From: Cyanobium sp. ATX 6A2
GTDB taxonomy: Bacteria; Cyanobacteriota; Cyanobacteriia; PCC-6307; Cyanobiaceae
DNA: 51,942 bases
Reading direction: 5' to 3'
Assembly: GCF_024346355.1 (NCBI RefSeq)
Contig: NZ_JAGQCU010000020.1
Coordinates: 1-51,942, forward strand
The translations under genes and the position numbers were made by a program. The notes beneath the pieces are model-generated. The model worked only from the letters and a program-made list of their open reading frames with translations. It did no database searches and had not been told where the DNA came from. This document shows positions 5,319-21,952 of this stretch, in pieces (the stretch's first letter is position 1; each line of letters starts with the position of its first letter).

Positions 5319-5442
5319 TCTAGGTCGCGACGACGGTGTTGGTTTACAGCCAAGCCAAGCGCCCTTGCAAAGGGGCTGACAGAGGGTGACAGCCCTTGAA
5401 TCCTCAACTGACAGCTGCCCAGGCACAAACCAGGATTGGGTG

Positions 5443-8400: not shown

Positions 8401-8799
8401 GCCCAGGCCACCGCGGCTGAACTGCTCAAGCAGCGGGGTGCCACCGAGGCCGATGCACTGAAGGAGGTGCTCCGGGCCCAGCGCAAACGCATCAATGCCA
8501 CCGTGAGACAGCGCAACCGGGATCTGGCCAAGCTCGATCGCCAAGCCGCGGCAGCCGATCCCACCGCACTGATTCCAGGGCTGGAAGAGCAGCTGGAAGT
8601 GCCGGCCCTGGATCTGCAGAAGCTCTCCAGCCAGGAGCGCAAACAACTCTCGGCTGATCAGAAGCACTGGCAACGGCGGCTGGAAACGATCGAAACGGAG
8701 CTGGCCACCGAACCGAAGCGGATTCAGGAGAGCTATCGGGTGATCACCCACCGGCTGGAGCCGGCGGGGCTCGTCTACCTCTGGCCCATCAGTGGATAG
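5443..8799 (+). CDS. drmD: DISARM DrmD, SNF2-family helicase/ATPase
   Basis: ATG 5443 is preferred over an in-frame GTG at 5386 because the conserved sequence begins just after it; the product is 1118 residues. SNF2/RapA-like motifs are in order: motif I DDVGLGKTIEAGL near residue 142, motif II LILDEAHN near 256, motif III LSATPHNGHSN near 295, motifs V-VI ATDAAREGVNLQ and QRNGRIDR near 600-635. A long coiled-coil-rich C-terminal third follows. In class 1 DISARM, drmD is the class-defining large helicase, thought to act on or remodel incoming DNA together with the DrmA/DrmB core. It opens the operon, and fic starts two bases after its stop. Confidence 0.93.
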   Translation: MTSTATGRRQKLKPGAVVRCRTRRYLVEDVQAPLEPGADTVVSMACMEDDAIGARLTVFREREIDFEVLGESSWEAVAQRGFDQPKQFSAYLNTLRWNCVTATDAELFQAPYRAGIDVKAYQLEPLRKALQMPRVGLFIADDVGLGKTIEAGLILREMLLRQRIKRVVISCPPSVLRQWQEEMASRFGLAFTVMDRAYLAKVRQERGYGTNPWSTHSRFLISHALLRNSEYSAPLRVWLEQGKGGEDQAPVQSLLILDEAHNAAPASNTLRYAIDSGLTRSLRDLAPLFEHRIFLSATPHNGHSNSFTALLELLDPARFVRGVPFEPSDLDTVLVRRLKDDLRRIGEEFPERIVEPLSVPKGSLPADTPELELSRLLQKYRKQREQRLIQGGATKRQLNADRLVITNLQKRLLSSIEAFARTLKVHRRSLDQKQEQRREALAATGAQLDLLLGGADSNSDLAELTEDELLNLEEAQTRAALRQTFEADQSDLALLERMGEIAAANRSLPDPRIHLLETFLRTHLCPSLGEAKAAWNPTRLLIFTDYVDTKRYLERQLRDLLGNDDADRRIASFTGGMSEDNRERLKAQFNADPDQEPLRILIATDAAREGVNLQNHCKHLIHFDIPWNPSKLEQRNGRIDRKLQRAPQVWCHYFVLEDRPEDRVMDVLVKKTEVIRQELGSLSPLVQRQVDEVLEGGIDTDDTEAVEQQLLAMDSASTDRGAMLNRAREELEATRRVEKLQQQQDELRQLLAKSHDWLGFDDDPFRDALNCSLDLLGVSGLVKGNDEKGQSCWRLDHPEALVAGSNDRSWENTLDSLRGVWDRKTPLWQWRQEHPVRPVIFSDPGRLNAEAVHLHLEHRLVQRLLSRFLSQGFLHHELSRACVLASTDPQPKVLVLGRLSLFGQGATRLHDQLISVIADWHPGDNRASALKPLVGAQQQQAWAALTKAMEAGNAEAISAAIRSQLQADAPADVAALKPALDAAAEQAQATAAELLKQRGATEADALKEVLRAQRKRINATVRQRNRDLAKLDRQAAAADPTALIPGLEEQLEVPALDLQKLSSQERKQLSADQKHWQRRLETIETELATEPKRIQESYRVITHRLEPAGLVYLWPISG

Positions 8800-8801
8800 G
8801 C

Positions 8802-9947
8802 ATGAAGCGTTCCTCGCTCACGCCCTGGAAACCCCGCTTCTCCTACAGCGATGCGTTGGTGGCTGATCTCTGCGCCATCGCCGATGCCCGGGCCAGGGTT
8901 GCGTTGCTGCCTCTGCCAGCGGATGAAAGCCTGCGCTTGCGTCACGCGGCCTATCAGCGCAGCACCCGCAGCAGCACGCGCATCGAGGGCAACACGCTGG
9001 ACGACGCAGCCGTGCGGGTCGCGATCGCGAAGGCGGATCGTGAGCGAAGCAAGGCGGAGCATGAGGTGCGCAACTACTGGCGTGCCCTCGATCGGGTGGA
9101 GGAATGGGCCCAAGGCAGCAGCCCCCTCAGTGAGGCATGGATTCAGGAGCTGCATGCTGTGGTAATCGTGCGCGGCCGCGGCAGGCGCCGACAGCGATCG
9201 CTGTTTCGCGACGAGGAAGTGCCAGTGGTGGACACGCTGAGCCGCCGCATCGACTACGCCCCGCCCAGACCCGACGATGTGGGCCCCTTGATGGAGCAGC
9301 TGTGCGACTGGTGGCAGGCCAGTGAGCAACTGCCGCCGCTGATCAGGGCGGGGTTGCTCAGCCATCGCTTCATTTCGATTCACCCCTTTCCCGACGGCAA
9401 CGGGCGCTGTGGGCGTCTGCTGGCGACGGCCTCGCTCTGGCGCAGTGGCTACGCATTCCGGGGGTTGCTGAGCTTTGAGGAGTGGTTCGCGTCCGATCGG
9501 GAGCGCTACTACACAGCCCTGCAGCTCGGCTGTGCCGTCGACTTCTACGAAGGGCGCCATGACCCTGAGCACAGCGCCTGGCTCAGCTACTTCGTGGATG
9601 TGATCCAGCAGGCCGCTGCTGATCTGGCCCAGCGCGCCGAAGCCCTTCAGGGCCATCAGGAACCGCCCGATCCTCACCCGTGGGAGGGGCTGGATCGGCG
9701 CAGCCAGCAGCTGCTCACCCGCTTGCGGGCATGCGTCGCCGCTGGCGAGGGCCAGGCGGAACAGTTCAAGCCGTCTGATCTTGAGGAGTGGTTTGCCGTG
9801 TCGTCAACCACAGCCCAGGACTGGCTGCGTCATTGGCAGGAACAAGGATTCCTGGAGCCGGCCCGGCCGGGACAGCGCATCCGCGTCTGGCGCGTCTGCG
9901 AGCCCTGGGCGAGCTGGGTCTTAAGCCAACCGCAGCAGCGGGAATAA
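8802..9947 (+). CDS. fic: Fic-domain protein (AMPylase type), DISARM-embedded
   Basis: The catalytic Fic motif HPFPDGNGRCGRLL starts near residue 194, with all key residues present (H, D/N, G, N, G, R). An N-terminal inhibitory motif of the [S/T]xxxE[G/N] type is present as S58-TRI-E62-G63-N64, which places it among Fic proteins that carry their own inhibitory helix. The last 80 residues (FKPSDLEEWFAVSSTTAQDW) form a likely winged helix. Fic proteins usually transfer AMP to hydroxyl groups of target proteins. The gene is tightly packed behind drmD and ahead of drmMI. Fic is not part of the usual five-gene class 1 DISARM set, so it may modify or guard a DISARM protein, or be a passenger. Confidence 0.92.
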   Translation: MKRSSLTPWKPRFSYSDALVADLCAIADARARVALLPLPADESLRLRHAAYQRSTRSSTRIEGNTLDDAAVRVAIAKADRERSKAEHEVRNYWRALDRVEEWAQGSSPLSEAWIQELHAVVIVRGRGRRRQRSLFRDEEVPVVDTLSRRIDYAPPRPDDVGPLMEQLCDWWQASEQLPPLIRAGLLSHRFISIHPFPDGNGRCGRLLATASLWRSGYAFRGLLSFEEWFASDRERYYTALQLGCAVDFYEGRHDPEHSAWLSYFVDVIQQAAADLAQRAEALQGHQEPPDPHPWEGLDRRSQQLLTRLRACVAAGEGQAEQFKPSDLEEWFAVSSTTAQDWLRHWQEQGFLEPARPGQRIRVWRVCEPWASWVLSQPQQRE

Positions 9948-10066: not shown

Positions 10067-13000
10067 ATGCCCCGCCGCCCCTCCACCATTGACCCCGAGC
10101 TCCTGGCCCACCAGGAGTGGCTGGGCTACCTGCAGCCGGTGGGCCTGGTGGTGGCTCCTGCGGCGATGCAGGACGCCGGCTGGGTGGTGACCCGCAGTGG
10201 CAGTGAGCTGATCGAGCGGCAGGAGCGCTACCGGGAATCACTTGAAGCCCTTGGCTCTGATGAAGAGGCGGATGCGGAAGACCGGGAGCTGGGTTTCTCC
10301 CGCATCGAGACCTTGCTGGTGGATCACCTGGGCTGGAGTGGCGATCAGGTCCAGAGCGACCCGAACCTGATCGAGGGTTACACCAGGGACCTGCCTGAAC
10401 TCGGCGAAACCTTGCAACCTTCAGCCGTGGTGCCTGCTGCGGCCGGCGATGGTGCCCAGCTGCTCGTGCAGGACTTGCCATTACTCACGCCACTGGATCA
10501 GAAGGTCAGCGGCGGCGAGCACCTCTGGCGCGCGAGCGCCCAGGAGCGCTTTGAGCGGCTGCTGCGCGAAACAGGCGTGGAGGCGGGGCTGCTGTTCAAC
10601 GGCAGCCAGCTGCGGCTGGTGGTGGCCCCGAAGGGTGAAAGCTCTGGGCACATCACCTTCTCACTCAAGGATCTCGCGGCGGTGAGCGGCCGGCTGATGT
10701 TCTCGGGCCTGGATCTGCTGCTGGGCCAGAGCCATATGTTCCTCGATCCCGATGGCTACCGGCTCGCTGATGTGCTGAGGAAAAGCCGCAGCTTCCAGGC
10801 GGTGGTGAGCAATGCCCTGGCCGATCAGGTGCTCGCCGCGCTGTGGGAGTTGCTGCGGGGCTTCCAACAGGCCGATGAACTCACCCAGCGCCAGGGCGGC
10901 CTGCTGCTGGGGCATCTGGCCGAGAACGAACCAAAGCAGCTCTATGGCGGCCTGATCACGGTGCTGATGCGGCTGGTGTTTCTGCTCTACGCGGAAGACA
11001 ACGCCTTGCTGCCAAAGGATGCGGTGTATGAGCAGAACTACAAGGTGAGCGGTGTCTTTGAGCGGCTGGAGCAGGACGCCGCCGAATTTCCCGACACCAT
11101 GGAGCAGCGCTACGGCGCCTGGGCCGGGTTGATGAGCCTCTGCCAGCTGGTGTTCGCCGGCGGTGGCGCCACGGTGGATTACCTGCCGGCGCGCAAAGGG
11201 CAGCTGTTTGATCCGGCGGTCTACCCCTGGCTGGAAACACCCTGGATCAGCGATGGGGTGGTGCACGAGGTGCTCTCCAACCTGCTGGTGGTGAAGGGCG
11301 AGCGCATCAGCTACCGGGCCCTCGATGTGGAGCAGATCGGCTCGGTGTACGAGGGGATCATGGGCTATGCGGTGCGTCGCATCCCCGGCCGCTGCATCGG
11401 CCTGAAGAGCAAGCCCCAGGGGGCCAAGAAGCAGCTCACCACGGCGGTGGACCTCGATGCCTTGCTGGCTCTTCCGGGTGCCAAGCGCAAGGCCTGGCTG
11501 GAGGAGCAGGCCGCCACCACCCTTCCAGCCAAGGCGGCCAATGCCCTGAAGGCGGCGACCAGCGAGACCGAGCTGTTGGAGGCTCTGGCGCCACGCATGA
11601 ACCGCGAGCTGTTCGACGGGCCCCAGGCTGCCGGCAGCCTGGTGTTCCAGCCCACTGAGGAACGGCGCCGCAGCGGCAGCCACTACACACCCCGGGCGCT
11701 GACGAGGCCGATCGTGGAAGAAGCCCTGCGGCCCTGGTTGGAGCGCTGTGGCGGCAAGCCAACGGTCGCCCAGATCCTGGCGTTGAAGATCTGCGATCCG
11801 GCGATGGGCTCAGGCGCCTTCCTGGTGGAGTGCTGCCGTTACCTGGCCGAGCTGCTGGAGCTGGCCTGGAGCAGGGAGGGCATGCCAGATGGCATCAAGC
11901 CCGGTGGCTCTGCCCACGGGGAAGAGCCCTTGATCTATGCCCGCCGGCTGATCGCCCAGAGCTGCCTGTACGGGGTCGACAAGAACCCGTTTGCGGTGAA
12001 CCTGGCCCGGCTGAGCCTGTGGCTGGTGAGCCTGAGCAAGGACGCGCCGTTCACCTTCGTGGATCACGCCCTCAAGTGCGGCGATTCGCTGGTGGGCATG
12101 GAGCGCACGGAGATTGAGAAGGCACTGAAAGGAGCTTCTCGGCAGGGTGAACTGCAGGAGGCCTACCTCGATCAGCTGCGGCAGCAGGAGGCCCGCAGCT
12201 TCGCGTTGTTCCATGCCGACAGCCGCAGCGATGCCGACGACGCCCAGAAGCGCGAGGCCCTGAACGATCTGAATGCCAGCACTGCCTACCTGCGCACGGT
12301 GGGCGATCTGCTGGTGGCAGCGTTTTTCAATGGCAAGAAGCCGAAGGACCGCGAGGAGCTGAAGAAGGACTACCTGGCCGAAACGGTGAAGACAAACTCA
12401 GCCACTGAGCTGAAGAGGGAGCTGGCGAACGAGCTTCAGCAGCTCTACGACGGCGAGAAGGGCATCACGCCCCTCCACTGGCAGTTGGCCTTCCCGGATG
12501 TGTTCGGCCGGCCGGAGCCAGGCTTCGACGTGTTCGTGGGCAACCCGCCCTTCGCTGGGAACAACACCCTCATCCAAGGCTACCCCGAGGGAATCCTCGA
12601 CTGGTTCAAGCAGCTACATCCTGAGAGTGGTGGGCTTTGCGATCTTGTGGCCCACTTCTTCCGCCGCTGCTTCCAGTTACTGCGGCCAAGTGGATCCCTG
12701 GGGCTGATCGCTACCAACACCATCGCGCAGGGTGACACTCGCAGTAGCGGCCTACGCTGGATCTGTCTGAACGGCGGCACGATCTACTCCGCCCGCAAGC
12801 GCTACAAGTGGCCTGGCGTGGCAGCCGTGGTGGTGAGCGTGGTGCACCTATACAAGGGAGCCTACGCCGGCGTGAAGCTTTTGGAGAAGCGGCCAGTGAA
12901 GAAGATCACGGCCTTTCTGTTTGCCAACGGTGGCCACGATGATCCAATGCAATTGCTTTCCAATGCTGGCAAGAGCTTTCTTGGATCGAAGATCTACGGC

Positions 13001-14236
13001 CAGGGCTTTACCTTCGACGATTCTGGGCCGGCTGACAACGACACTCCTGGTATCCCCTCTCCAATCGCCACGATGGAGCGGCTGATTGCCGAGAACCCGA
13101 AGAATGCAGAGGTGGTCTTTCCGTATATCGGCGGCGAGGAGGTGAACAGCAGCCCCACTCATGCCCATCATCGCTATGTGATCAACTTCGGGGAGACGAC
13201 CGAAGAAGCGTGTTGGCAGGAGTGGCCGGAACTGATGGGGATTGTGGAGCGGAAGGTGAAGCCTGAGCGTGATCAGTTGAATGACAACGCTGATGGCCGG
13301 CGACGCAAACAATTCTGGTGGCAGTTTGGTCGCGCCACACCTGCACTTGAAGCTGCAGCTGGGCACTGCGAACGCGTGCTTGCCTTGTCGAGAGTCAGAG
13401 CCACAGGCTTCGCATATTTGGCGCCAAGGGCTGTTATCTCAGAGCAAACCATTGTCTTCCCAGTCCAACAGTTTTGCTTTTTTGCCTCGCTTCAGTCTCA
13501 ACTGCATCAACCTTGGTCATATGCCTTCAGTGGATCAGCTCTTGACCTGATTCGGTATTCCCCATCCGACTGCTTCGAGACGTTCCCTTTCCCCGCAGCC
13601 CTCCTCGATTCCGCCGCCAGGGATCCTGCCCACGAAGCCACCCACCAGAGCCTCGAAACCATCGGCGAGCGCTACCACCAGTGCCGCGCCGAGCTGATGG
13701 TGGACAACAACGAAGGCCTCACCAGCACCTACAACCGCTTCCACGATCCAGCCGAAACCAGCAGCGGCCTCCTGGAGCTGCGCCGCCTCCACGGCGAGAT
13801 GGATCAGACGGTGCTGGCCGCCTACGGCTGGAGCGATGTGCCCACCGCCTGTGGCTTCGGGCTCGACTATCTCGACACCGAAGACGACGCCCAGCTCCCC
13901 GATGAGCTGCAGCAACGCATCGACAGCGGCGAGCTGTTCTTCTGGGATGCAGGCGCCGCGCTCGATTTCCAGGGCCAACTGCAGGCCTACGGCGCCATCA
14001 CAGGCCGCCGCAAACTGCCCTGGCGCTATCGCTGGCCCGATGCCGTGCGTGACGACGTGCTGGCTCGGCTGCTGGCCCTGAACGCCGAGCGCTATGCGGA
14101 GGAGGTTGCGATGGGGTTGCACAGCAAGGGGGGCAAGAAAGCTGCCGCAGCCACAGCCGCAGGTGGCAAACGACCCGGCCGGCCACCCAGGGCCACTCAG
14201 GCTGTCGATACTGAGCAGATCGGTCTGGGGATATGA
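10067..14236 (+). CDS. drmMI: DISARM DrmMI, adenine-specific DNA methyltransferase
   Basis: This 1389-residue protein has an S-adenosylmethionine-binding motif DPAMGSGAFLVECCRYLAE near residue 577 and a catalytic NPPF (GNPPFAGNNTL) near residue 826, the order of gamma-class N6-adenine methyltransferases of the Eco57I/type IIG kind. Long N- and C-terminal regions (LNGGTIYSARKRYKWPGVAA after NPPF) are likely for target recognition. No PD-(D/E)XK nuclease motif was noticed. In class 1 DISARM it marks host DNA as self. The low-complexity tail GKKAAAATAAGGKRPGRPPR ends in DTEQIGLGI; a copy of this tail is found in the scar ORF at 14925. Its stop overlaps the next start (ATGA). Confidence 0.93.
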   Translation: MPRRPSTIDPELLAHQEWLGYLQPVGLVVAPAAMQDAGWVVTRSGSELIERQERYRESLEALGSDEEADAEDRELGFSRIETLLVDHLGWSGDQVQSDPNLIEGYTRDLPELGETLQPSAVVPAAAGDGAQLLVQDLPLLTPLDQKVSGGEHLWRASAQERFERLLRETGVEAGLLFNGSQLRLVVAPKGESSGHITFSLKDLAAVSGRLMFSGLDLLLGQSHMFLDPDGYRLADVLRKSRSFQAVVSNALADQVLAALWELLRGFQQADELTQRQGGLLLGHLAENEPKQLYGGLITVLMRLVFLLYAEDNALLPKDAVYEQNYKVSGVFERLEQDAAEFPDTMEQRYGAWAGLMSLCQLVFAGGGATVDYLPARKGQLFDPAVYPWLETPWISDGVVHEVLSNLLVVKGERISYRALDVEQIGSVYEGIMGYAVRRIPGRCIGLKSKPQGAKKQLTTAVDLDALLALPGAKRKAWLEEQAATTLPAKAANALKAATSETELLEALAPRMNRELFDGPQAAGSLVFQPTEERRRSGSHYTPRALTRPIVEEALRPWLERCGGKPTVAQILALKICDPAMGSGAFLVECCRYLAELLELAWSREGMPDGIKPGGSAHGEEPLIYARRLIAQSCLYGVDKNPFAVNLARLSLWLVSLSKDAPFTFVDHALKCGDSLVGMERTEIEKALKGASRQGELQEAYLDQLRQQEARSFALFHADSRSDADDAQKREALNDLNASTAYLRTVGDLLVAAFFNGKKPKDREELKKDYLAETVKTNSATELKRELANELQQLYDGEKGITPLHWQLAFPDVFGRPEPGFDVFVGNPPFAGNNTLIQGYPEGILDWFKQLHPESGGLCDLVAHFFRRCFQLLRPSGSLGLIATNTIAQGDTRSSGLRWICLNGGTIYSARKRYKWPGVAAVVVSVVHLYKGAYAGVKLLEKRPVKKITAFLFANGGHDDPMQLLSNAGKSFLGSKIYGQGFTFDDSGPADNDTPGIPSPIATMERLIAENPKNAEVVFPYIGGEEVNSSPTHAHHRYVINFGETTEEACWQEWPELMGIVERKVKPERDQLNDNADGRRRKQFWWQFGRATPALEAAAGHCERVLALSRVRATGFAYLAPRAVISEQTIVFPVQQFCFFASLQSQLHQPWSYAFSGSALDLIRYSPSDCFETFPFPAALLDSAARDPAHEATHQSLETIGERYHQCRAELMVDNNEGLTSTYNRFHDPAETSSGLLELRRLHGEMDQTVLAAYGWSDVPTACGFGLDYLDTEDDAQLPDELQQRIDSGELFFWDAGAALDFQGQLQAYGAITGRRKLPWRYRWPDAVRDDVLARLLALNAERYAEEVAMGLHSKGGKKAAAATAAGGKRPGRPPRATQAVDTEQIGLGI

Positions 14237-14550
14237 CTAGCTCAGCCGCTCTGCCTGTTCTCAGCCCCGATCAGGTGCTGCCCCTGCTGCGAGAACGCCA
14301 GAACGAATGGCGACAGCGCTACCAGCTGCAACGCATCGGCCTGTTCGGCTCCACAGCCCGCAACGAAGCCACACCCCAGAGCGATGTTGATGTGTGGGTC
14401 GAACTCGATCCCCTCACCCCCTACGCCACCGTCCACCTGAAGCAGGAGCTGGAGGAGCTGCTGCAGCGCCCAGTCGACTTGGTGCGGCTGCGGGAGCGGA
14501 TGAATCCCGCCCTGCGCCAGGCCATCCTCCGGGAGGGGATCAGCGCATGA
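14233..14550 (+). CDS. mntA: MNT-domain antitoxin 1 (minimal nucleotidyltransferase)
   Basis: The 105-residue protein has the nucleotidyltransferase signature FGSTARNEATPQSDVDVWVE, which fits GSx10DxD, and a third acidic position near PVDLVRL. Its end, ALRQAILREGISA, is typical of MntA antitoxins. MntA proteins block partner HEPN RNases by adding AMP units to a tyrosine next to the active site. The start overlaps the drmMI stop as ATGA and the stop overlaps the HEPN start as ATGA, so all three are translationally linked. It is only distantly like the second MNT at 15053. Confidence 0.88.
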   Translation: MTSSAALPVLSPDQVLPLLRERQNEWRQRYQLQRIGLFGSTARNEATPQSDVDVWVELDPLTPYATVHLKQELEELLQRPVDLVRLRERMNPALRQAILREGISA

Positions 14551-14921
14551 GCGGTGATCGGCTTGTGCTGCTCACACCCCTCCGGCAGGCACTGGAGCGG
14601 ATCGAGCGCAAGGCTGCGCCCCTGCTCGCCGATCCGGCGCTGCTGGACGGCGAAGAAGGCCAGGACCTGCTCGATGTCATCTGCATGCAGTTCCTCGCGG
14701 CGGGCGAGGCCCTCAAGCGGCTGGAGAAGCTTGAGCCTGGCCTGCTGGTTGCCAGGTTCCCCGACATCGATTGGAAGGGAGCCATGGGTTTCCGCGATGT
14801 GATCGCCCATCAGTACTTCGATCTGGACGCTGAGCAGGTGCTGCTGATCTGTCAGGACGCTTTGCCAGGCGTGCTCAGCGCGATTCGCTCCCTCGAAGAA
14901 CAAGCCAGCAAGAGCACCTGA
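14547..14921 (+). CDS. hepT: HEPN-domain toxin 1 (HepT-like RNase)
   Basis: ATG 14547 is chosen because it overlaps the stop of the MNT gene; a longer frame runs upstream but covers that gene. The 124-residue helical protein carries RDVIAHQYF near residue 83, matching the Rx4HxY motif of HepT RNases: R and H form the active site and the Y is the AMP acceptor of the MntA partner. The upstream helix (DLLDVICMQFLAAGEALKRL) matches the four-helix HEPN fold. The ORF ends three bases before the scar ORF. Confidence 0.85.
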   Translation: MSGDRLVLLTPLRQALERIERKAAPLLADPALLDGEEGQDLLDVICMQFLAAGEALKRLEKLEPGLLVARFPDIDWKGAMGFRDVIAHQYFDLDAEQVLLICQDALPGVLSAIRSLEEQASKST

Positions 14922-14924
14922 ACC

Positions 14925-15056
14925 ATGGCCACCTCCACCGAAATCCGCCAGCAGCTGGTCGCTGCCATGAACGGCTCAGTCAGCAGCGCTCAACGCGGCA
15001 GGCCTGCGAAGGCCGCTGATCCGGCCGATACTGAGCAGATCGGACTGGCGCTATGA
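14925..15056 (+). CDS. 43-residue chimeric ORF: drmA start fused to drmMI end
   Basis: The first 14 residues, MATSTEIRQQLVAA, copy the start of DrmA (MATSAEIRSQLVAA at 15713). The last part, RGRPAKAADPADTEQIGLAL, copies the DrmMI tail (GRPPRATQAVDTEQIGLGI). The match also holds at the DNA level: the same CCATGGCCACCTCC leads both drmA-like starts, and GATACTGAGCAGATCGG is shared with the drmMI end. The short middle (MNGSVSSAQ) is neither. The ORF keeps gene-like spacing: it starts 3 bases after the HEPN 1 stop and its stop overlaps MNT 2 as ATGA, exactly as drmMI overlaps MNT 1. It is best seen as a recombination scar that is still translated to couple the second pair. Confidence 0.8.
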   Translation: MATSTEIRQQLVAAMNGSVSSAQRGRPAKAADPADTEQIGLAL

Positions 15057-15364
15057 GCCTCGCCCTCGCCCAACCCCAGCTCGACGCCATCGCTGACGCC
15101 TGCCGGCGGCATCAGGTGTTGCGCATGCACCTGTTCGGCTCGGCCCTGCGCGACGACTTCGACCCCAGCCGCAGCGACCTGGATCTGCTCGTTGAGTTCC
15201 AGCCGATCGAGCCGGGTGCCCTGGTGAAGGCCTATTTCGGCCTGGAGCGCCAACTGGCCGCGATCACCGGCAAACCAGTGGATCTGGTGATGGCCGATGC
15301 GGTACGCAATCCCTACGTGCGCCGCGATATCGAGGCCTCGAAGCAGTTGATCTATGAAGCGTGA
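15053..15364 (+). CDS. mntA: MNT-domain antitoxin 2 (minimal nucleotidyltransferase)
   Basis: The 103-residue protein has FGSALRDDFDPSRSDLDLLV, the nucleotidyltransferase signature with one extra residue compared with MNT 1 (GSx11DxD), and PVDLVMADAVRNPYVRRDIE with the expected third acidic region. This variant belongs to a different MNT subgroup (the one with YFGLERQLAAITGKPVDLV) from MNT 1. The start overlaps the stop of the scar ORF (ATGA) and the stop overlaps the HEPN 2 start by 11 bases. The likely role is to AMPylate and silence HEPN 2. Confidence 0.88.
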   Translation: MSLALAQPQLDAIADACRRHQVLRMHLFGSALRDDFDPSRSDLDLLVEFQPIEPGALVKAYFGLERQLAAITGKPVDLVMADAVRNPYVRRDIEASKQLIYEA

Positions 15365-15710
15365 TCCTCGGGCCTTCCTCAGCGATGTGATCGAAGCCGG
15401 GCAAGCCATCCACCAGGCTATTGCTGGCATCAGCCTCGACGAGTACGGCAATAGTCGTCTGATCCGCTCCTCTGTTGAGCGTGAATTCATCACCATCGGT
15501 GAAGCGCTGATGCAGCTGTCTCAACGTGATCAGGCGTTGTTCGGAGAGATCGAACAGGCACCGCAGATCATCAGCTTTCGCAACAAGCTCACCCACGAGT
15601 ACATCAACATCAACAACCAGTTGGTCTGGGGTGTCATCAAGACCAATCTGCCTGTGTTGGTCGATCAGTGCCGTCAGTTGCTCGATCGCCTCGATCGGGA
15701 GCTTCCCTGA
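15354..15710 (+). CDS. hepT: HEPN-domain toxin 2 (DUF86/HepT-like RNase)
   Basis: The 118-residue protein has the layout of the DUF86 HEPN family: SDVIEAGQAIHQAIAGISLD, then SSVEREFITIGEALMQLS, then FRNKLTHEYININNQLVWGV. RNKLTHEY matches Rx4HxY, with R and H for RNA cleavage and Y as the probable AMPylation site. It overlaps MNT 2 by 11 bases. Its stop lies two bases before the drmA ATG, the same spacing context as between HEPN 1 and the scar ORF. Confidence 0.9.
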   Translation: MKRDPRAFLSDVIEAGQAIHQAIAGISLDEYGNSRLIRSSVEREFITIGEALMQLSQRDQALFGEIEQAPQIISFRNKLTHEYININNQLVWGVIKTNLPVLVDQCRQLLDRLDRELP

Positions 15711-15712
15711 CC

Positions 15713-18700
15713 ATGGCCACCTCCGCTGAAATCCGCTCCCAGCTCGTCGCTGCCCTCCGCAGCGATCTGATCGGCCCCAGCTGGGACGATGTTGCCCGCC
15801 GCCATGAGCAACTGCCCCAGCCGCCCTCGGTCTGGTTCACCACCGGCTTCCTGGTGCCCCATGTGTTCCAGCAGGAAGCTGGCCGCACCACAACAGACGA
15901 GCAACTCTCCTTCTCTGATCTCGCCGGAGAAGAACCCAGCAGCGATGCCGCCAACCGCCTGGAGAAGCAGGAAAAGGACGACGACGCCAACGATGCCCTG
16001 GATCAGGCCAACACGCGCCGCAGCTGGTTTACCTCCTCCTGCGGCTTGAGCTTCATCCTGGAGCGCGGCTCCACCATTGAAGCCACTGTCTCCTGGGGGG
16101 ATTACACAGCCCCGGCCGATGGCGACGACGAGAAGCTCTGGCTGCGCAGCCCTCAGCGCCAAAATGCGACTCTGACGATTGCCGGCGAGGGCACCAGCCC
16201 AGACATCCCATTGGAGGCCAAACCTCAGGGCCTTTGCCTGCGCTGGATCGCCCGGCCAGCCCCCAGCAAGCTCGGCTATCCCAGTGATCAGCTGTCGGTG
16301 TCGCTCTTTCTGCTCAACAAGCGGGAGCCGCCCAAGACCAACCAGATCCGTCACCGCGATCCGGTGTCTGCTTTCCAGGTGGAGCTGAGCCTCCACTGCC
16401 CCCAGGGCTTCCCACCGCGTCGCGATGCCCTGCAGCAGGCCGCCAAGGATCCCGACGAACGCCTCGCAGCCCTTCAATACCGGCACGATACCTGCTTCGC
16501 GAGCGGCCACAACGTCGCCGTGATCGCCTCAGGCATCCCCGACGACAACCCCGCCCGCTGCCACACGCTCACCACCACCTGGCTCCCCACCGCCCGGGTG
16601 TTCCGCACCCTTCCCGAACCACCCCCCGGCACCAACGTGCCAATGGGGATGGAGGCCCTGGCGGATCTGGCCCGCAGCGAACGCATCGGCCAGCAGTTGA
16701 TGCCGATGGTGACGGCCTACCGGGGTTGGATCACCCAGCAACCGAAACACCCCATCAGCGACAACGATCAGAACGAAACCGCCAAGCAGCTCCGGGCCCA
16801 GGCGGAAGCCTGCGCCAAGCGCATCGAAAACGGCATCAAGCTGCTGGCTGATCCCCTGGTGCGCGAGGCCTTCCGCACCATGAACGTGGTGATGGCCCGC
16901 GCCAGCCGCCAGCGCAGTGCCTTCAGCGCCAAGGTGCCGCCCGATCAGATCGGCATGGCTCCGAACACCCGCAGCCCGAAGTGGCGCTTCTTTCAGCTGG
17001 CCTTTGTGCTGATGAATCTGCCGGGCCTGGCGGCTCCAGAGACCCCCGATGGCCGGCTGGATCGTGAGGCCGTAGAGCTGCTGTTCTTCCCCACCGGTGG
17101 CGGCAAGACGGAGGCCTACCTCGGCCTGGCGGCCTTCCTCCTGGTGCACCGCCGCCTGCAGAGCCCGGGGATCGAATCAGCCGGCATCACGGTGCTGATG
17201 CGCTACACCCTGCGGCTGCTCACCCTCGATCAGCTCGGCCGCGCCGCCACCTTGATCTGCGCCCTGGAGCTCGAGCGCCTGGAGCGAATCGAGAAGAGCG
17301 CCCCCTACCTGCTGGGTGAATGGCCCTTCGAGATCGGCATGTGGGTGGGCAAGGCCGCCACCCCCAACAAGCTCGGCGGACAGGGCGACAGCGACCAACA
17401 GTCCACCCACGCCGTGCTCACCAAGTGGAAGGCGGGCAAGCGCGATCGGCCGATCCCGATCGAAACCTGCCCCTGGTGCAACCGCCCCCTCCAGCCGGAA
17501 GGCTTTCACCTGTTGCCCCCGAGGAATCCCGATCGATTGGAGATCTACTGCCGCGAACCCCGCTCTCCTGAGGCCAAGCAGGATTTCGCCCACATGGGGC
17601 CATGCCCCTTCCACAAGGGCACGCCATTGCCAGTGCTGGCGGTGGACGAGCAGATCTACCGCCGCCTGCCCTGCTTCCTGATCGCCACGATCGACAAGTT
17701 TGCCGCCCTCCCCTGGGTCGGCAAAACGTCTTCGCTGTTCGGCAACGTCAGCACCTATCAGTTGCCTACGAGGAGTGGACCTGCCGGTTTCTGGGGTCCG
17801 GCCGAGAAAAGCGCCGGTGGCCTCAAGATCCCCCATGGCCGCCTACTGCCGCCGGAACTCGTCATCCAGGACGAACTGCACCTGATCAGTGGCCCCCTCG
17901 GCACGCTCGCTGGCTTGTATGAAACGGTGATCGAGGGGCTGATGCGGCCGAACGCCTCCACCCCACCACCCAAGATCATTGCCTCCACCGCCACCGTGCG
18001 CCGGGCCGAGGCCCAGATCAAGGCCCTGTTCGCCCGCAGCCAGGTGCGGATCTTCCCGCCACCGGGCCCAGAGCGCGACGACAACTTCTTCTCTCGCACC
18101 ATCCCCGATCCCGACCAGGCGCGGCTGTATGTGGGCCTCTCGGCGCCGGGCCGCAACCTCAAGGGTGTGCTGCTGCGCTCTTACCTGGGCCTGATGGCCG
18201 CAGCCCAGAAGGGCTGGAACGACAACAAGGCCATGGGCGCCAACAACTCAGCCGATCCCTACATGACCCTGCTGGGCTATTTCTCCAACCTCAAGGAGCT
18301 GGGCGTGACGCGCAGCATCCTGGAAGACGAACTCGGCGGCCAGCTGGAGCAATTTGCCAAAAACCGGTCCCTCGCCATGGAGGGTTTCGTCAATCCTTTT
18401 GCTTTCCGTAAGCGGCCCAATGAACCACAGGAACTCACGTCCCGGGTGAACACCGCCAAGATCAGCAGCACCAAAGACCGGCTCTCCAAGCCCTACATCG
18501 ATAAAGACCACCTCGATGTGGCCCTGGCCACCAACATGATTTCCGTGGGCCTCGACATCTCGCGCCTCGGCTTGATGGTGGTGCTCAACCAGCCCAAGAC
18601 CGCCGCCGAGTACATCCAGGCCACCAGCCGCGTTGGCCGGCAGCTCAGCGACAACCCGGAGCAGAACAAACCCGGCCTGGTGCTGGTGCTGCTCAATCCC

Positions 18701-19252
18701 AATCGCCCGCGGGATCGCTCCCACTTCGAGCTGTTTTCTTACTGGCACCAAACCTTTTACCGCCATGTGGAGGCCACCAGTTGCACGCCCTTCGCCAGCC
18801 GGGCTCTTGATCGCGGCCTGCCTGGGGTGGTGGTAGCGATGGCCCGCCACGGCGATCCAGCCCTGGCTGGGGCGAAGGGCGCCATGGCCGCAGATGCCCT
18901 GCAGAGCATCAAGGCTCAGATCGCCCAGGCGCTGCAGGATCGCTGCGTCGCCACCGGTGCCGCCGATGACAGCCTCGACGAACACCTACCCACAGAAGTG
19001 CGCGATCACGTGATCGATCTGCTCGAAGCCTGGTGGAAGCTCACCCAGGAGCCGGAAGCCAAACTGCAGTACTGGACCCATGAAGAAAAGGGTGCCGGTG
19101 CCGGCTTCCTGCACACCGCCCTCGACAACGATCCGATCTACCAAGCCGAGGGCTACAAGCAATTCACCACCAACTGGAGCCTGCGCGATGTGGAGCCCTC
19201 CGCACCGATTCGGATGGTGAATTTCAAGGAAGAGATCACCGCCGACGACTGA
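15713..19252 (+). CDS. drmA: DISARM DrmA, superfamily 2 helicase
   Basis: ATG 15713 is chosen because it follows the HEPN 2 stop by two bases and matches the copied start in the scar ORF; a start 15 codons upstream would lie in HEPN 2. The 1179-residue protein has Walker A FFPTGGGKTEAYLG near 460, motif II VIQDELHLISG (DELH) near 716, motif III IIASTATVRRA near 755, motif V MISVGLDISRLG near 944 and motif VI QATSRVGRQ near 969. An insert with Cys pairs (CPWCNRPL) lies near 590. DrmA is a core DISARM gene; with DrmB it forms a complex that binds single-stranded or overhang DNA. Confidence 0.95.
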   Translation: MATSAEIRSQLVAALRSDLIGPSWDDVARRHEQLPQPPSVWFTTGFLVPHVFQQEAGRTTTDEQLSFSDLAGEEPSSDAANRLEKQEKDDDANDALDQANTRRSWFTSSCGLSFILERGSTIEATVSWGDYTAPADGDDEKLWLRSPQRQNATLTIAGEGTSPDIPLEAKPQGLCLRWIARPAPSKLGYPSDQLSVSLFLLNKREPPKTNQIRHRDPVSAFQVELSLHCPQGFPPRRDALQQAAKDPDERLAALQYRHDTCFASGHNVAVIASGIPDDNPARCHTLTTTWLPTARVFRTLPEPPPGTNVPMGMEALADLARSERIGQQLMPMVTAYRGWITQQPKHPISDNDQNETAKQLRAQAEACAKRIENGIKLLADPLVREAFRTMNVVMARASRQRSAFSAKVPPDQIGMAPNTRSPKWRFFQLAFVLMNLPGLAAPETPDGRLDREAVELLFFPTGGGKTEAYLGLAAFLLVHRRLQSPGIESAGITVLMRYTLRLLTLDQLGRAATLICALELERLERIEKSAPYLLGEWPFEIGMWVGKAATPNKLGGQGDSDQQSTHAVLTKWKAGKRDRPIPIETCPWCNRPLQPEGFHLLPPRNPDRLEIYCREPRSPEAKQDFAHMGPCPFHKGTPLPVLAVDEQIYRRLPCFLIATIDKFAALPWVGKTSSLFGNVSTYQLPTRSGPAGFWGPAEKSAGGLKIPHGRLLPPELVIQDELHLISGPLGTLAGLYETVIEGLMRPNASTPPPKIIASTATVRRAEAQIKALFARSQVRIFPPPGPERDDNFFSRTIPDPDQARLYVGLSAPGRNLKGVLLRSYLGLMAAAQKGWNDNKAMGANNSADPYMTLLGYFSNLKELGVTRSILEDELGGQLEQFAKNRSLAMEGFVNPFAFRKRPNEPQELTSRVNTAKISSTKDRLSKPYIDKDHLDVALATNMISVGLDISRLGLMVVLNQPKTAAEYIQATSRVGRQLSDNPEQNKPGLVLVLLNPNRPRDRSHFELFSYWHQTFYRHVEATSCTPFASRALDRGLPGVVVAMARHGDPALAGAKGAMAADALQSIKAQIAQALQDRCVATGAADDSLDEHLPTEVRDHVIDLLEAWWKLTQEPEAKLQYWTHEEKGAGAGFLHTALDNDPIYQAEGYKQFTTNWSLRDVEPSAPIRMVNFKEEITADD

Positions 19253-19271: not shown

Positions 19272-21170
19272 ATGCCCCCCTCCACCCGCCGCAAAGCTGC
19301 TCCCCCGCCCCTCGGTGAGGCGCGTCAGAGCCAGGTGCTCCAGCTCTACGGACCTGGGGCGATGGTTGATCTGCCCGACTACTCGCTACTTATTGGCGGT
19401 TTGGATTTCTGGAACGATCGTGGCTGCGATCTGATCCATGAGCCGCGGCTGCTGAACCTGGTGCGGCAGGCCACGGGGATAGCACGCGTCGACCTGCGCA
19501 CACCACCCAAGGAGGTGGATCCGCTCAAGAACATCAGCGGTTCGATCAAGGCGCTGCGCTTCCCCGAGTGGTCCGTCGCTCAGAAGGTCAGCGAGAGAAT
19601 CGCCTTCGGGGTTCCCTGCCGCGCCAGGCCCCTGGTGCATTTCAACGACGGCTGCATCTCGGACTGGCGCACCTATCAGGACGACGAAGGAAAATACCAG
19701 CTGGTTCCTGTTCGCTTCGTGATGGCTTGCCCCCACGGCCACCTCAGCGACATCCGCTGGCGCGACTTCTGCTTCCGCCAGTTCGGCTGCAAGAACACCG
19801 AGCGTCTCTACCTGCTGGAAGCCGGCACCGGTAACGACTTCACCCAGATCTATGTGCAGTCAGAAGGCGGCACCACCCGCAAGCTTGCCGATGCCCTGGT
19901 CACAGAAATGAGTCCTCTGGGGCTTTGTCAGGGGTACACGCCCTGGCTGGGCCGCAACACCCGTGACTCCGAAAAGTGCACAACCGATGGTGAGCCCACC
20001 AAGAACCGCCTGTTGGTGCGTTCGGCCACCAACGCCTACTTCACCGAGACGATCTCGGTGATCTCGCTGCCGGAAGAAGCCAACTCCCTGGCCAAGCGCG
20101 TCACCGAACTCAAAGACGACCTCGCCTTGATTGAAGCGGAGGCTGATGTGTCCGCAGCCATCAAGTTCAACCCACGTCTCAAGAGTGTCTTCGCCGGGGT
20201 GGATCCAGCAGTCCTCTGGCAGACGATTGAGGCCCAGCGGGGCGGAACCAGCGGCCAGCTCGCCCAACCCAAGGATGAGGAGCTGGCGCTGCTGATCGGT
20301 CCGATGGATGGGGTCTCCAGCTCAGCCGAGGGGAGCTTGTTCGAGGCGGATGTGTGGCAGCCCCCCAATGCACCAGCCTGGTTCCGCAAAGCCATCAAGC
20401 GGGTGCTGCTCGTGCACCGTCTGCGGGAAGTGCAGGCCCTGGTGGGGTTTACCCGCTTCACGGCCCGTACCAGCAGCCTGGGCGGCCTGCCGATCGACAC
20501 CACCAAGGTGAACCGCCGGGCAGCGCTGGCCAACGATCTGCGTTGGGTGCCGGCCAGTGAGAACAAGGGGGAAGGGATCTTCATCGAATTCGATCCCGCC
20601 ACAATCAAGGCCTGGGCCGCCAGTGATCCGGTGGTGATGCGCGCCAGCCAGTTCACCAAGGCCTTCGAGAACGAGTGGCTCGCGTCCCGCGGCCTCGACG
20701 AAACCCAGTTCCCCTTCCCCGGAGCCCCCTACCTCCTGCTGCACAGCCTCAGCCACCTGTTGATCACCGAGATGGCCCTGGAGTGCGGCTATGGCGCCAG
20801 CTCGATCCGCGAGCGGATCTACGCCAACAGTGAGATCGGCTACGGCATCCTGCTGTTCACCAGCAGCTCTGGATCAGAAGGCACCCTGGGTGGCCTGGTG
20901 GGTGCCGGGAAGCGGATCGTGGCCTATCTGGACAAGGCCTTCGAGCGCGGTCAGCTCTGCAGCAATGATCCCTTCTGCTCCGAGCACGACCCCAACCACC
21001 CCTTTGACATCCGCCCCACCCATGGCGCCGCTTGCCATGGCTGCGAACTGATCGCCGAAACCTCCTGCGAGATCCGCAATGAGTTCCTCGATCGAGCCCT
21101 GGTGAGCCCGACCGTTTCGGCAAACCCCGAAATCGGTGATCCATCCTTCTGGGAGTTCATCAACGCATGA
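19272..21170 (+). CDS. drmB: DISARM DrmB, DUF1998 protein
   Basis: The 632-residue protein opens with GEARQSQVLQLYGPGAMVDL, the typical DrmB start. Its C-terminal DUF1998 domain shows LLLHSLSHLLITEMALECGY near 490 and a cysteine cluster near 560-610: FCSEHDP, GAACHGCELIAETSC, then EIRNEFLDRALV. These cysteines probably bind zinc. DUF1998 proteins work as partners of large helicases, and in DISARM DrmB pairs with DrmA. It begins 19 bases after the drmA stop and overlaps drmC by 4 bases (ATGA), so the three core genes are translated together. Confidence 0.95.
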   Translation: MPPSTRRKAAPPPLGEARQSQVLQLYGPGAMVDLPDYSLLIGGLDFWNDRGCDLIHEPRLLNLVRQATGIARVDLRTPPKEVDPLKNISGSIKALRFPEWSVAQKVSERIAFGVPCRARPLVHFNDGCISDWRTYQDDEGKYQLVPVRFVMACPHGHLSDIRWRDFCFRQFGCKNTERLYLLEAGTGNDFTQIYVQSEGGTTRKLADALVTEMSPLGLCQGYTPWLGRNTRDSEKCTTDGEPTKNRLLVRSATNAYFTETISVISLPEEANSLAKRVTELKDDLALIEAEADVSAAIKFNPRLKSVFAGVDPAVLWQTIEAQRGGTSGQLAQPKDEELALLIGPMDGVSSSAEGSLFEADVWQPPNAPAWFRKAIKRVLLVHRLREVQALVGFTRFTARTSSLGGLPIDTTKVNRRAALANDLRWVPASENKGEGIFIEFDPATIKAWAASDPVVMRASQFTKAFENEWLASRGLDETQFPFPGAPYLLLHSLSHLLITEMALECGYGASSIRERIYANSEIGYGILLFTSSSGSEGTLGGLVGAGKRIVAYLDKAFERGQLCSNDPFCSEHDPNHPFDIRPTHGAACHGCELIAETSCEIRNEFLDRALVSPTVSANPEIGDPSFWEFINA

Positions 21171-21952
21171 GCCTCACGCTGCCAGCTCAGACACTGCGGG
21201 CAGTCGCTACAGATCTCCGGCGTCTGAACTACACGCCCACCAGTTGGCAGGGATTGCTCTCCACCCACAGCGAAGCGATCCGCCTTCAGCTCGAGCCACT
21301 GTTGGTGGAGATGGTGCGAGAGGGAGCCCATCCCCGCCTCATGGCGTTGCTCCTTGATCGCCTCGCCGATGCCCAAGAAGCTCTCCAGATGGAGCGGAAC
21401 GCCTGGAGCTTCGTGTGGTCTGGCCCGGATCCTCTCCATGCCAGAACTGCCGACACGTTTGCGACGGTGGATCAGCTGATCCGTAGGGCCCGCTCCAGCC
21501 TGCTGATCGCCACCTACAACATCGGCCTCTCCTCAGGGTTCCGCGAGCTGTTGGAGACCATCGCCCTGCGCCTGGAAGCGGGCCAACTGCAGCGCGTGGA
21601 GCTGTTCTTCCACCCTGTGCAGATCGCCCACCAGCTGGGCTCCGATCCCCTGGCGGCGATCAAGCAGTGGTTCCATGCCGAGGTGTGGCCCTGGCCCGCC
21701 AAACCTCGGGCCTATGTCGACCAGCGCCTGGTGTCTGGCTCTGCTGAGCGCTGCTACCAGCACGCCAAGGTGGTTGTCACAGATGCCGCAACCGACCACG
21801 CCAGCGCCCTGGTGTCCAGCGCCAACTTCAGCGAAACCGCCCAGCGCCACAACTTCGAGGCCGGCTGGCTGGTGCGAGAACCCTGGCGCGCGAACCAGGT
21901 GAATGATCACTTCATCAAGTTGGTGGCCGAGGGACTTTTTGTGCCCATCTGA
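21167..21952 (+). CDS. drmC: DISARM DrmC, phospholipase D-like protein
   Basis: The 261-residue protein has one HKD-type motif, HAKVVVTDAATDHASALVSS, near residue 199, followed by ANFSE, as in PLD-superfamily nucleases. A half-motif with Asn (LLIATYNIGLSSGFRELLET) lies near 110. PLD enzymes act as dimers or with two motifs, so a single copy implies a homodimer or a partner. It is the last gene of the operon, overlapping drmB by 4 bases. In studied DISARM systems drmC is not always required for protection. No strong terminator is seen just after its stop. Confidence 0.92.
   Translation: MSLTLPAQTLRAVATDLRRLNYTPTSWQGLLSTHSEAIRLQLEPLLVEMVREGAHPRLMALLLDRLADAQEALQMERNAWSFVWSGPDPLHARTADTFATVDQLIRRARSSLLIATYNIGLSSGFRELLETIALRLEAGQLQRVELFFHPVQIAHQLGSDPLAAIKQWFHAEVWPWPAKPRAYVDQRLVSGSAERCYQHAKVVVTDAATDHASALVSSANFSETAQRHNFEAGWLVREPWRANQVNDHFIKLVAEGLFVPI

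Follow-up and report, generated by a model that had tools for sequence, protein, structure and literature searches.

A class 1-like DISARM operon carrying two MNT/HEPN pairs

The window analysed here, meaning the whole stretch of 51,942 nucleotides, belongs to a genome of 3.0 Mb in 46 contigs whose named near relatives are Synechococcus and Cyanobium. Its forward strand carries an operon with the order drmD, Fic, drmMI, MNT1, HEPN1, a small ORF (hereafter the scar), MNT2, HEPN2, drmA, drmB and drmC. The drmD gene (5386..8799) encodes an SNF2-type helicase (PADLOC DrmD, 1042.9 bits; Pfam Helicase_C and SNF2) and drmMI (10067..14236) an adenine-methyltransferase-type protein (PADLOC DrmMI, 1229.5 bits; Pfam Eco57I/MmeI). 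The DISARM core follows as three adjacent genes, all with PADLOC matches: the helicase gene drmA (15713..19252; 6.6e-249), the DUF1998 gene drmB (19272..21170; 1.4e-64) and the phospholipase D-like drmC (21167..21952; 7.1e-145). With drmD and drmMI upstream of drmA, an arrangement that we take to be the mark of DISARM class 1, the operon is classified from its gene matches as class 1-like DISARM. Systems of this class restrict phage through methylation-dependent self-recognition. The gap between drmD and drmMI holds a SoFic-like gene with a Fic domain (8802..9947; Pfam Fic 8.9e-19; PADLOC SoFic 1.1e-48). In the related locus L015, drmD adjoins drmMI without this gene, so the drmD-drmMI gap may be a second cargo slot.

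Pairs of the MntA-HepT type combine a nucleotidyltransferase with the motif GSx10DxD and a HepT-like protein with the motif Rx4-6H (RX4HXY), and in such pairs the cognate MNT neutralises the toxicity of the HEPN protein. Pair 1 consists of MNT1 (14233..14550; Pfam NTP_transf_2 1.9e-14; motif GSTARNEATPQSDVD) and HEPN1 (14547..14921; Pfam HepT-like 2.7e-12; RDVIAHQY), while pair 2 comprises MNT2 (15053..15364; NTP_transf_2 1.4e-11), in which the GS...DLD motif has a spacing one residue longer than usual, and HEPN2 (15354..15710; HepT-like 1.4e-15; RNKLTHEY). Both consist of an adjacent MNT and a HepT-like gene by Pfam and are predicted MNT/HEPN toxin-antitoxin pairs. MNT1 and MNT2 are only 38% identical over 76 residues, which indicates that the pairs are not a recent duplication, and HEPN1 and HEPN2 barely detect each other. 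A simple tandem duplication of one pair was thereby ruled out, in agreement with the first-pass annotation, which had placed the two MNTs in different subgroups.

DrmMI ends in DTEQIGLGI. In 31 of 33 distinct DrmMI tails a basic linker is followed by Q[I/M]GLxL or similar (window 14204-14233), the exceptions being L108 (QQDLKLF) and L008 (SLDLR); the motif is absent from the intact Nostocales plasmid tails. Bacterial proteins bind the sliding clamp through the hexapeptide QLxLxL. The DrmMI end motif resembles this hexapeptide and could tie the methyltransferase to replication.

The small ORF joins a drmA start to a drmMI end

The scar (14925..15056) is an ORF of 43 codons in which the 5′ end of drmA is fused in frame to the 3′ end of drmMI. 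Its first 42 nt (14925..14966) match the start of the resident drmA (from 15713) at 36 of 42 positions with a score of 54, compared with 27 for the best of 1000 shuffles and 30 for the best of 233 other 401-bp pieces of the window. The last 64 nt (14993..15056) are identical to the resident drmMI tail (14173..14236) at 49 of 64 positions (score 53; best of 1000 shuffles 32; best of 234 other 341-bp window pieces 28), and about 20 nt in the middle lie outside both matched halves. The likeness extends to the borders. The drmMI stop overlaps the MNT1 start in an ATGA (14233-14236) that recurs where the scar stop overlaps the ATG of MNT2 (15053-15056), and the spacing between HEPN2 and drmA, TGA-CC-ATG (15708-15715), nearly recurs between HEPN1 and the scar as TGA-ACC-ATG (14919-14927). 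The scar is thus a genuine joint of a drmA start with a drmMI end, as the first-pass annotation had proposed.

Chance or convergent composition of gene ends was considered, given the low complexity of the drmMI tail, in which K, R, G, P and A abound, and the noise of searches made with it. Against this, both halves of the scar far exceed the shuffled and window controls and the fused ORF has a full-length relative in another genome (L018, below). Furthermore, a strand control was run on 269,588 bases of drmMI-drmA intervals, or of the upstream stretch where drmMI was not found. It returned 12 near-exact drmA starts (at least 14 of 15 nt) on the coding strand and none on the opposite strand; 8 coding-strand copies remain after removal of L113, L114, L115 and L134. 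Two 15-nt matches (L115 5342 and L134 1250) were set aside for their doubtful context. Chance similarity, to which we give a negligible probability, was ruled out on these grounds.

Each pair occurs alone in relatives

Overlapping genome samples were scanned for relatives of DrmA. At the level of the phylum 35 of 386 genomes had one, at that of the family 51 of 400 and at that of the genus 5 of 13; two other genera gave 23 of 42 and 3 of 25, and a further scan gave 23 named loci. At most two drmA candidates were scored per genome in the phylum and family scans, MNT/HEPN pairs in relatives were found by tblastn, and locus coordinates are given after orienting each locus so that drmA reads forward.

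The first-pass annotation had named relatives with a single pair between the core genes as a test of its proposal, and both single-pair layouts were found. Pair 1 stands alone in L081 (genome G457, same genus), which reads drmMI (stop at 13314), MNT1, HEPN1 and drmA (14003), and pair 2 stands alone in L082 (genome G372) and L022, both of which read drmMI, MNT2, HEPN2 and drmA. The window stretch from HEPN1 through the scar start (14861-14975) aligns without gaps to the HEPN1-drmA boundary of L081, and the stretch from the scar tail into MNT2 (14994-15141) aligns without gaps to the drmMI-MNT2 boundary of L082.

We then compared each segment with its nearest relatives. L081 is nearest or among the nearest for MNT1 (93%), HEPN1 (96%) and the drmA 5′ end (94%), and the first kilobase of drmA is 93-96% identical to it in 300-bp windows. 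MNT2 and HEPN2 have their nearest loci elsewhere (L011, L102, L021, L018 and L090), and the scar tail is closer to the drmMI ends of L082 and L103 (54 of 63 positions) than to the resident one. The window therefore looks like an L081-like layout (drmMI, pair 1, drmA) with an imported block of scar, MNT2 and HEPN2. The scar head carries the drmA variant RQQLV, as in L082, L084 and L011, in place of the RSQLV of L081, and its best matches among drmA starts (L011, L085 and L086) rank above L081; it is thus not simply a head stranded from an L081-like resident. For this reason, and since L018 carries the same scar between differing flanks, we prefer the reading that the window may have imported a ready-made block rather than making the joint itself.

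Joints with different breakpoints recur in related loci

When the 43-residue ORF was searched against 399 genomes of the order, 12 genomes matched at E 0.01 or better. Residues 1-43 were covered in two of them, the window's own genome and G631, which holds L018. Most other matches were true drmMI ends; a match in G529 (residues 4-43, 53%) corresponds to a joint in L005. The match in G330 was dropped, as no DISARM gene lies in the surrounding 18 kb.

In L018 the fused ORF (1094-1225) is in frame, shares 84% amino-acid identity with the scar and lies between an internally deleted HEPN1 and MNT2. Outside the joint, the opposite strand of this locus carries a Fic-cluster fragment and an AAA-like gene whose Pfam relatives fall below the curated cut-off. 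The same joint between other flanks indicates that it was shared as a block while the flanks changed. The HEPN1 of L018 (984-1088) has lost codons 19-107 by an in-frame internal deletion, with MNT1 kept.

Four further joint types were judged independent by their differing breakpoints. L090 (4232-4399) has about 22-26 drmA codons followed by a drmMI end, an MNT/HEPN pair and a drmA of a different type. In L116 (13394-13614), a locus without an intact drmA, drmA codons 36-83 are followed by a drmMI end in another frame and then MNT2. L005 (3690-3934) has the head of the other DrmA type (LLDRPPNRCYQSGFLAPTETSL, compared with LLDRPPNRWYQSGFLIPSETSL in L099) followed by a drmMI end whose overlapping neighbour belongs to the GmrSD cluster, a cluster found immediately after drmMI in L015. 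The fourth is a joint at drmA codon 6 (MATSAE::AGETG), which precedes MNT2 in L021 and L020 and MNT1 in L019 and L018; the L018 copy lacks the ATG, and the L020 version is more diverged, although we read it as of common origin with the other three. By eye, the sequence shared at the codon-6 breakpoint amounts to only about 2 nt. In total, five types of head::tail joint were found in eight loci, and all five place the drmA head before the drmMI tail in the direction of the operon.

Incomplete remnants were also found. Head-only remnants are present in four loci: L098, where the head immediately follows the drmMI stop, L011, L014 and L085. In L131, L017 and the left joint of L090 the remnant is tail-only or rich in tail sequence. 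All drmA remnants are short (at most about 85 codons). Scanning all six frames for drmMI tails returned numerous weak matches of low complexity on either strand, so we kept only those with support from a head, the frame, the position or several queries.

To quantify the remnants, the roughly 100 bases beside each tblastn MNT start or HEPN end were scored against panels of genuine drmMI tails and drmA heads, and 600 pieces drawn at random from these stretches served as the null. True boundaries scored above all null pieces in 16 of 16 and 12 of 12 cases, as expected since most are panel members themselves. Among internal MNT starts, 12 of 26 were preceded by a drmMI-tail-like peptide scoring above the 99th percentile and 9 of 26 above all 600 pieces (11 and 8 of 25 after dropping L017 214, a true drmMI cut by the contig end). 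A drmA-like head above all 600 pieces followed 7 of 20 internal HEPN ends, or 5 of 18 once L113 and L114, which are decayed drmA genes themselves, were dropped. In these counts the one joint shared by the window and L018 enters twice. The internal boundaries without a remnant above threshold (14 of 25 MNT starts and 13 of 18 HEPN ends) had either lost it by erosion or received their cassette in another way.

The drmMI-drmA gap is a cargo slot

Among 33 distinct two-ended loci, the window included, the gap between drmMI and drmA measures at most 40 bp in three (L009, L084 and L100) and 658-10,084 bp in the other 30; L088, with a gap of about 9.7 kb, was removed as a duplicate of the L006 locus. 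In simple loci the cassette starts on the drmMI stop codon and reaches to within a few bases of drmA. Because antisense ORFs abound in the G+C-rich intervals, cargo was named only from scanned representatives and similarity clusters. In a Pfam scan of ten representative cargo genes, AbiEi, AbiEii, Fic and two GmrSD-type genes passed the curated cut-offs, as did a PrrC-like AAA_13 and an AAA_21 ATPase gene, while an AAA_22-like protein and two small proteins fell below them. PADLOC matches in the cargo comprised SoFic, PtuA (Septu), HEC-05, HEC-06 and PDC-S06. The part of the cargo that was examined contained no recombinase or integrase gene, and site-specific integration was left as unlikely. 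The drmMI-drmA gap serves as a cargo slot that takes up toxin-antitoxin pairs and defence genes of other kinds. In L004, L014, L016, L020, L085, L086 and L097 a shared CACAATGC-like stretch precedes drmA; it is perhaps a promoter region that travels with opposite-strand cassettes.

Outside the family we viewed 13 loci among the 15 matches listed of 80 plasmid records with a drmA match. A methyltransferase gene lies upstream in 12 of the 13, with genes between it and drmA in 7 of these 12 and none in 5; in L140, L141 and L150 it is broken by an insertion sequence or apparently truncated. The thirteenth record starts 2.3 kb before drmA and has no methyltransferase gene in that stretch. The plasmid cargo includes an MqsA-like gene in Thiodictyon and, in Trichormus variabilis plasmid C (NC_007412.1; L146 2889-4872), an ATPase gene and a DUF4435 gene with AriA/AriB-like (PARIS-like) PADLOC matches. 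Two Nostoc plasmids have same-sized genes at that position, a likeness by size alone. No convincing drmA-head or methyltransferase-tail remnants of their own were present in the 11 plasmid loci with an interval (a twelfth has none). Cargo without remnants in these plasmids indicates that the slot is used more widely; the scars themselves were seen only in this family, the Cyanobiaceae.

Recombination between DISARM loci as the probable source of the joint

The recurrent joints and the occupied drmMI-drmA gaps point to the window ORF being a stacking scar within the cargo slot, made by recombination between DISARM loci, a reading to which we assign a probability of roughly 85%. As to the route, a one-sided illegitimate insertion together with block transfer is somewhat favoured; of the routes considered, such an insertion makes the fewest demands. 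DNA from another DISARM locus would enter the drmMI-drmA slot, where homologous recombination at one end (within drmA, drmMI or a cassette already present) would be paired with an illegitimate join at the other, leaving the drmA start of one locus before the drmMI end and cassette of another. The joint and its neighbouring cassettes would then spread by ordinary homologous recombination. Head-only remnants, above all that of L098, would reflect an insertion at the drmA start with drmA restored by the donor. We infer the direction of growth along with this route. Joints with differing breakpoints and stranded ends of core genes fit an insertion that is homologous at one end and illegitimate at the other, the parent-recipient pairs being too distant for both ends to be mapped. 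Insertion of this kind, by homology-facilitated illegitimate recombination, has been proposed for Vibrio type VI arrays (PMC5361080), and another report describes one-sided illegitimate insertion both for naturally competent bacteria and for conjugation in E. coli (PMC3240628). Counting against illegitimate joining, drmA remnants as short as those found here are not predicted without later erosion or selection.

Three other routes were weighed. The first-pass annotation had derived the layout from tandem DISARM loci, by a deletion beginning at the start of the first drmA and stopping at the end of the second drmMI, and for two complete loci such a deletion does yield exactly the observed joint. 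Several genomes hold two types of DISARM drmA, on different contigs. Cells with two loci are hence not rare, and heads of both DrmA types are mixed in L005. However, no contig with two full-length drmA genes was present among the drmA matches listed, a negative weakened by the fragmented assemblies and by a ceiling of two scored candidates per genome in the phylum and family scans. The deletion must also be invoked anew for each of the five joint types, and the head-only remnants of L098, L011, L014 and L085 require no second complete locus; the route is not needed and we hold it to be improbable. Slightly less probable again is a tandem duplication in place, in which unequal crossover between a drmA start and a drmMI end on sister chromosomes is followed by replacement of one pair. 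This also gives the order drmMI, pair, head::tail joint, pair, drmA, and block exchange among loci, as between L018 and the window, would make a later replacement easy. It is opposed by the divergence of the two pairs in the window, by the scar tail being nearer to foreign drmMI ends than to the resident one, and by the fact that no joint was seen between two near-identical pairs. The nearest cases to a same-pair tandem are L005 and L090, each with two MNT2-type pairs (60-61% and 91-93% identical to the window MNT2).

The last route invokes circular cassettes, in which the head::tail joint closes a circle of drmMI tail, cassette and drmA head that inserts homologously in drmA or the drmMI end. 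Circles would explain why the same codon-6 joint precedes differing cassettes (MNT1 in L018 and L019, MNT2 in L020 and L021) and why the drmA head is directly repeated around the extra block of the window. Nevertheless, with breakpoints that differ between joints, no recombinase in the examined part of the cargo and no circle observed, we regard them as very unlikely.

Is the scar ORF functional?

Between the window and L018 the scar differs at 14 positions, with start, stop and frame kept and neither a frameshift nor a stop introduced. Its dN and dS are 0.077 and 0.242, compared with 0.040 and 0.461 for MNT2. If the scar were a functional small gene, under selection for its peptide or as a leader for translational coupling, this would account for the kept frame, for a dN below dS and for the conserved ATGA overlap with MNT2. 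On the other hand, the contrast between synonymous (7 of about 34 sites changed) and non-synonymous changes (7 of about 95) is borderline (Fisher p = 0.051), and among the other joints L116 has a frameshift and L090 terminates in double stops, so that a functional gene appears doubtful. The scar probably has no function, or at most that of a coupling leader, and a function of the peptide is unlikely. The overlap of its stop with the MNT2 start could pass ribosomes from HEPN1 to MNT2, which may explain the intact frame.

Relics of the pairs and comparison with known systems

Relics of these cassettes were also seen outside intact operons. L113 (12574-13656) and L114 (10-863) are decayed DISARM loci in which a near-complete MNT1-HEPN1 precedes a drmA start that is truncated in L114 and interrupted by stops in L113, as though the system had been outlived by its toxin-antitoxin pair. 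In the genome of the window itself, an orphan relic near the end of another contig (G000:C43:150772-151166, corresponding to L136 7714-8167) has a drmMI-tail-like peptide overlapping an MNT1 relative (80% amino-acid identity), followed by an internally deleted HEPN1 whose deletion is similar, not identical, to that of L018. A smaller relic of a tail and MNT2 start lies in the same genome at C20:5773-5823. The pairs retained in L113 and L114 and the orphan drmMI-tail-MNT1 relic suggest that toxin-antitoxin pairs may be selected in the slot as guards or anchors.

Integrons are ordered arrays of exchangeable cassettes at a fixed place, with an integrase gene and attC-like repeats. The DISARM slot resembles them in this respect; unlike integrons, its joints have variable breakpoints and no integrase was present among the cargo genes examined. 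The nearest parallel, according to the accessible portion of the report, is found in the immunity-gene arrays of Vibrio type VI secretion, where modules are successively inserted at one place of a conserved cluster, leave remnants and later spread as arrays by homologous recombination (PMC5361080). There, effectors are displaced and orphan immunity genes stay, whereas in DISARM whole toxin-antitoxin and defence cassettes stack; the remnants in the DISARM slot, unlike those of Vibrio, are the ends of the flanking core genes. In BREX, brxU between brxC and pglX is likewise a GmrSD-type gene amid the core genes of a methyltransferase-based operon, and the PrrC anticodon nuclease of a type IC restriction locus is likewise a toxin-like guard nested in an operon. 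Differently from the DISARM slot, the former is a single gene with no stack or scar described in the excerpt of the source (PMC8565348), and the latter is one gene with a known trigger and no stack described in the part of the paper available (PMC12707154). DISARM class 1 comprises drmD, drmMI, drmA, drmB and drmC, all of which are in the window; an excerpt on DISARM (PMC9142583) mentions auxiliary genes, without stacked cassettes marked by scars of core genes. Defence genes nested in restriction-type operons (PMC8565348, PMC12707154) and module arrays with remnants in secretion clusters (PMC5361080) were already known. A literature search conducted largely outside subscription journals, with sources available in part, turned up no account of a scar-marked slot for cassettes in DISARM.

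The growth of defence clusters is usually guessed from gene content. In the present loci the joints retain pieces of core genes, so that individual additions become readable and can perhaps be ordered. A tentative extension of the stacking reading is that DISARM in Cyanobiaceae might be an integrase-free cassette platform, in which the overlapping gene ends, the drmMI tail at the start of the cassette and the drmA head after its end, would act as portable connectors and head::tail joints as homologous sites for swapping and stacking, with translation of the operon kept continuous. The first-pass annotation had described the window ORF as a rare direct record of how cassettes stack; the record of stacking stands, but it is not unique, since relatives carry similar joints. 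With head::tail joints now known from eight loci, what began as one curiosity becomes a testable model of how a defence locus may grow from the inside.
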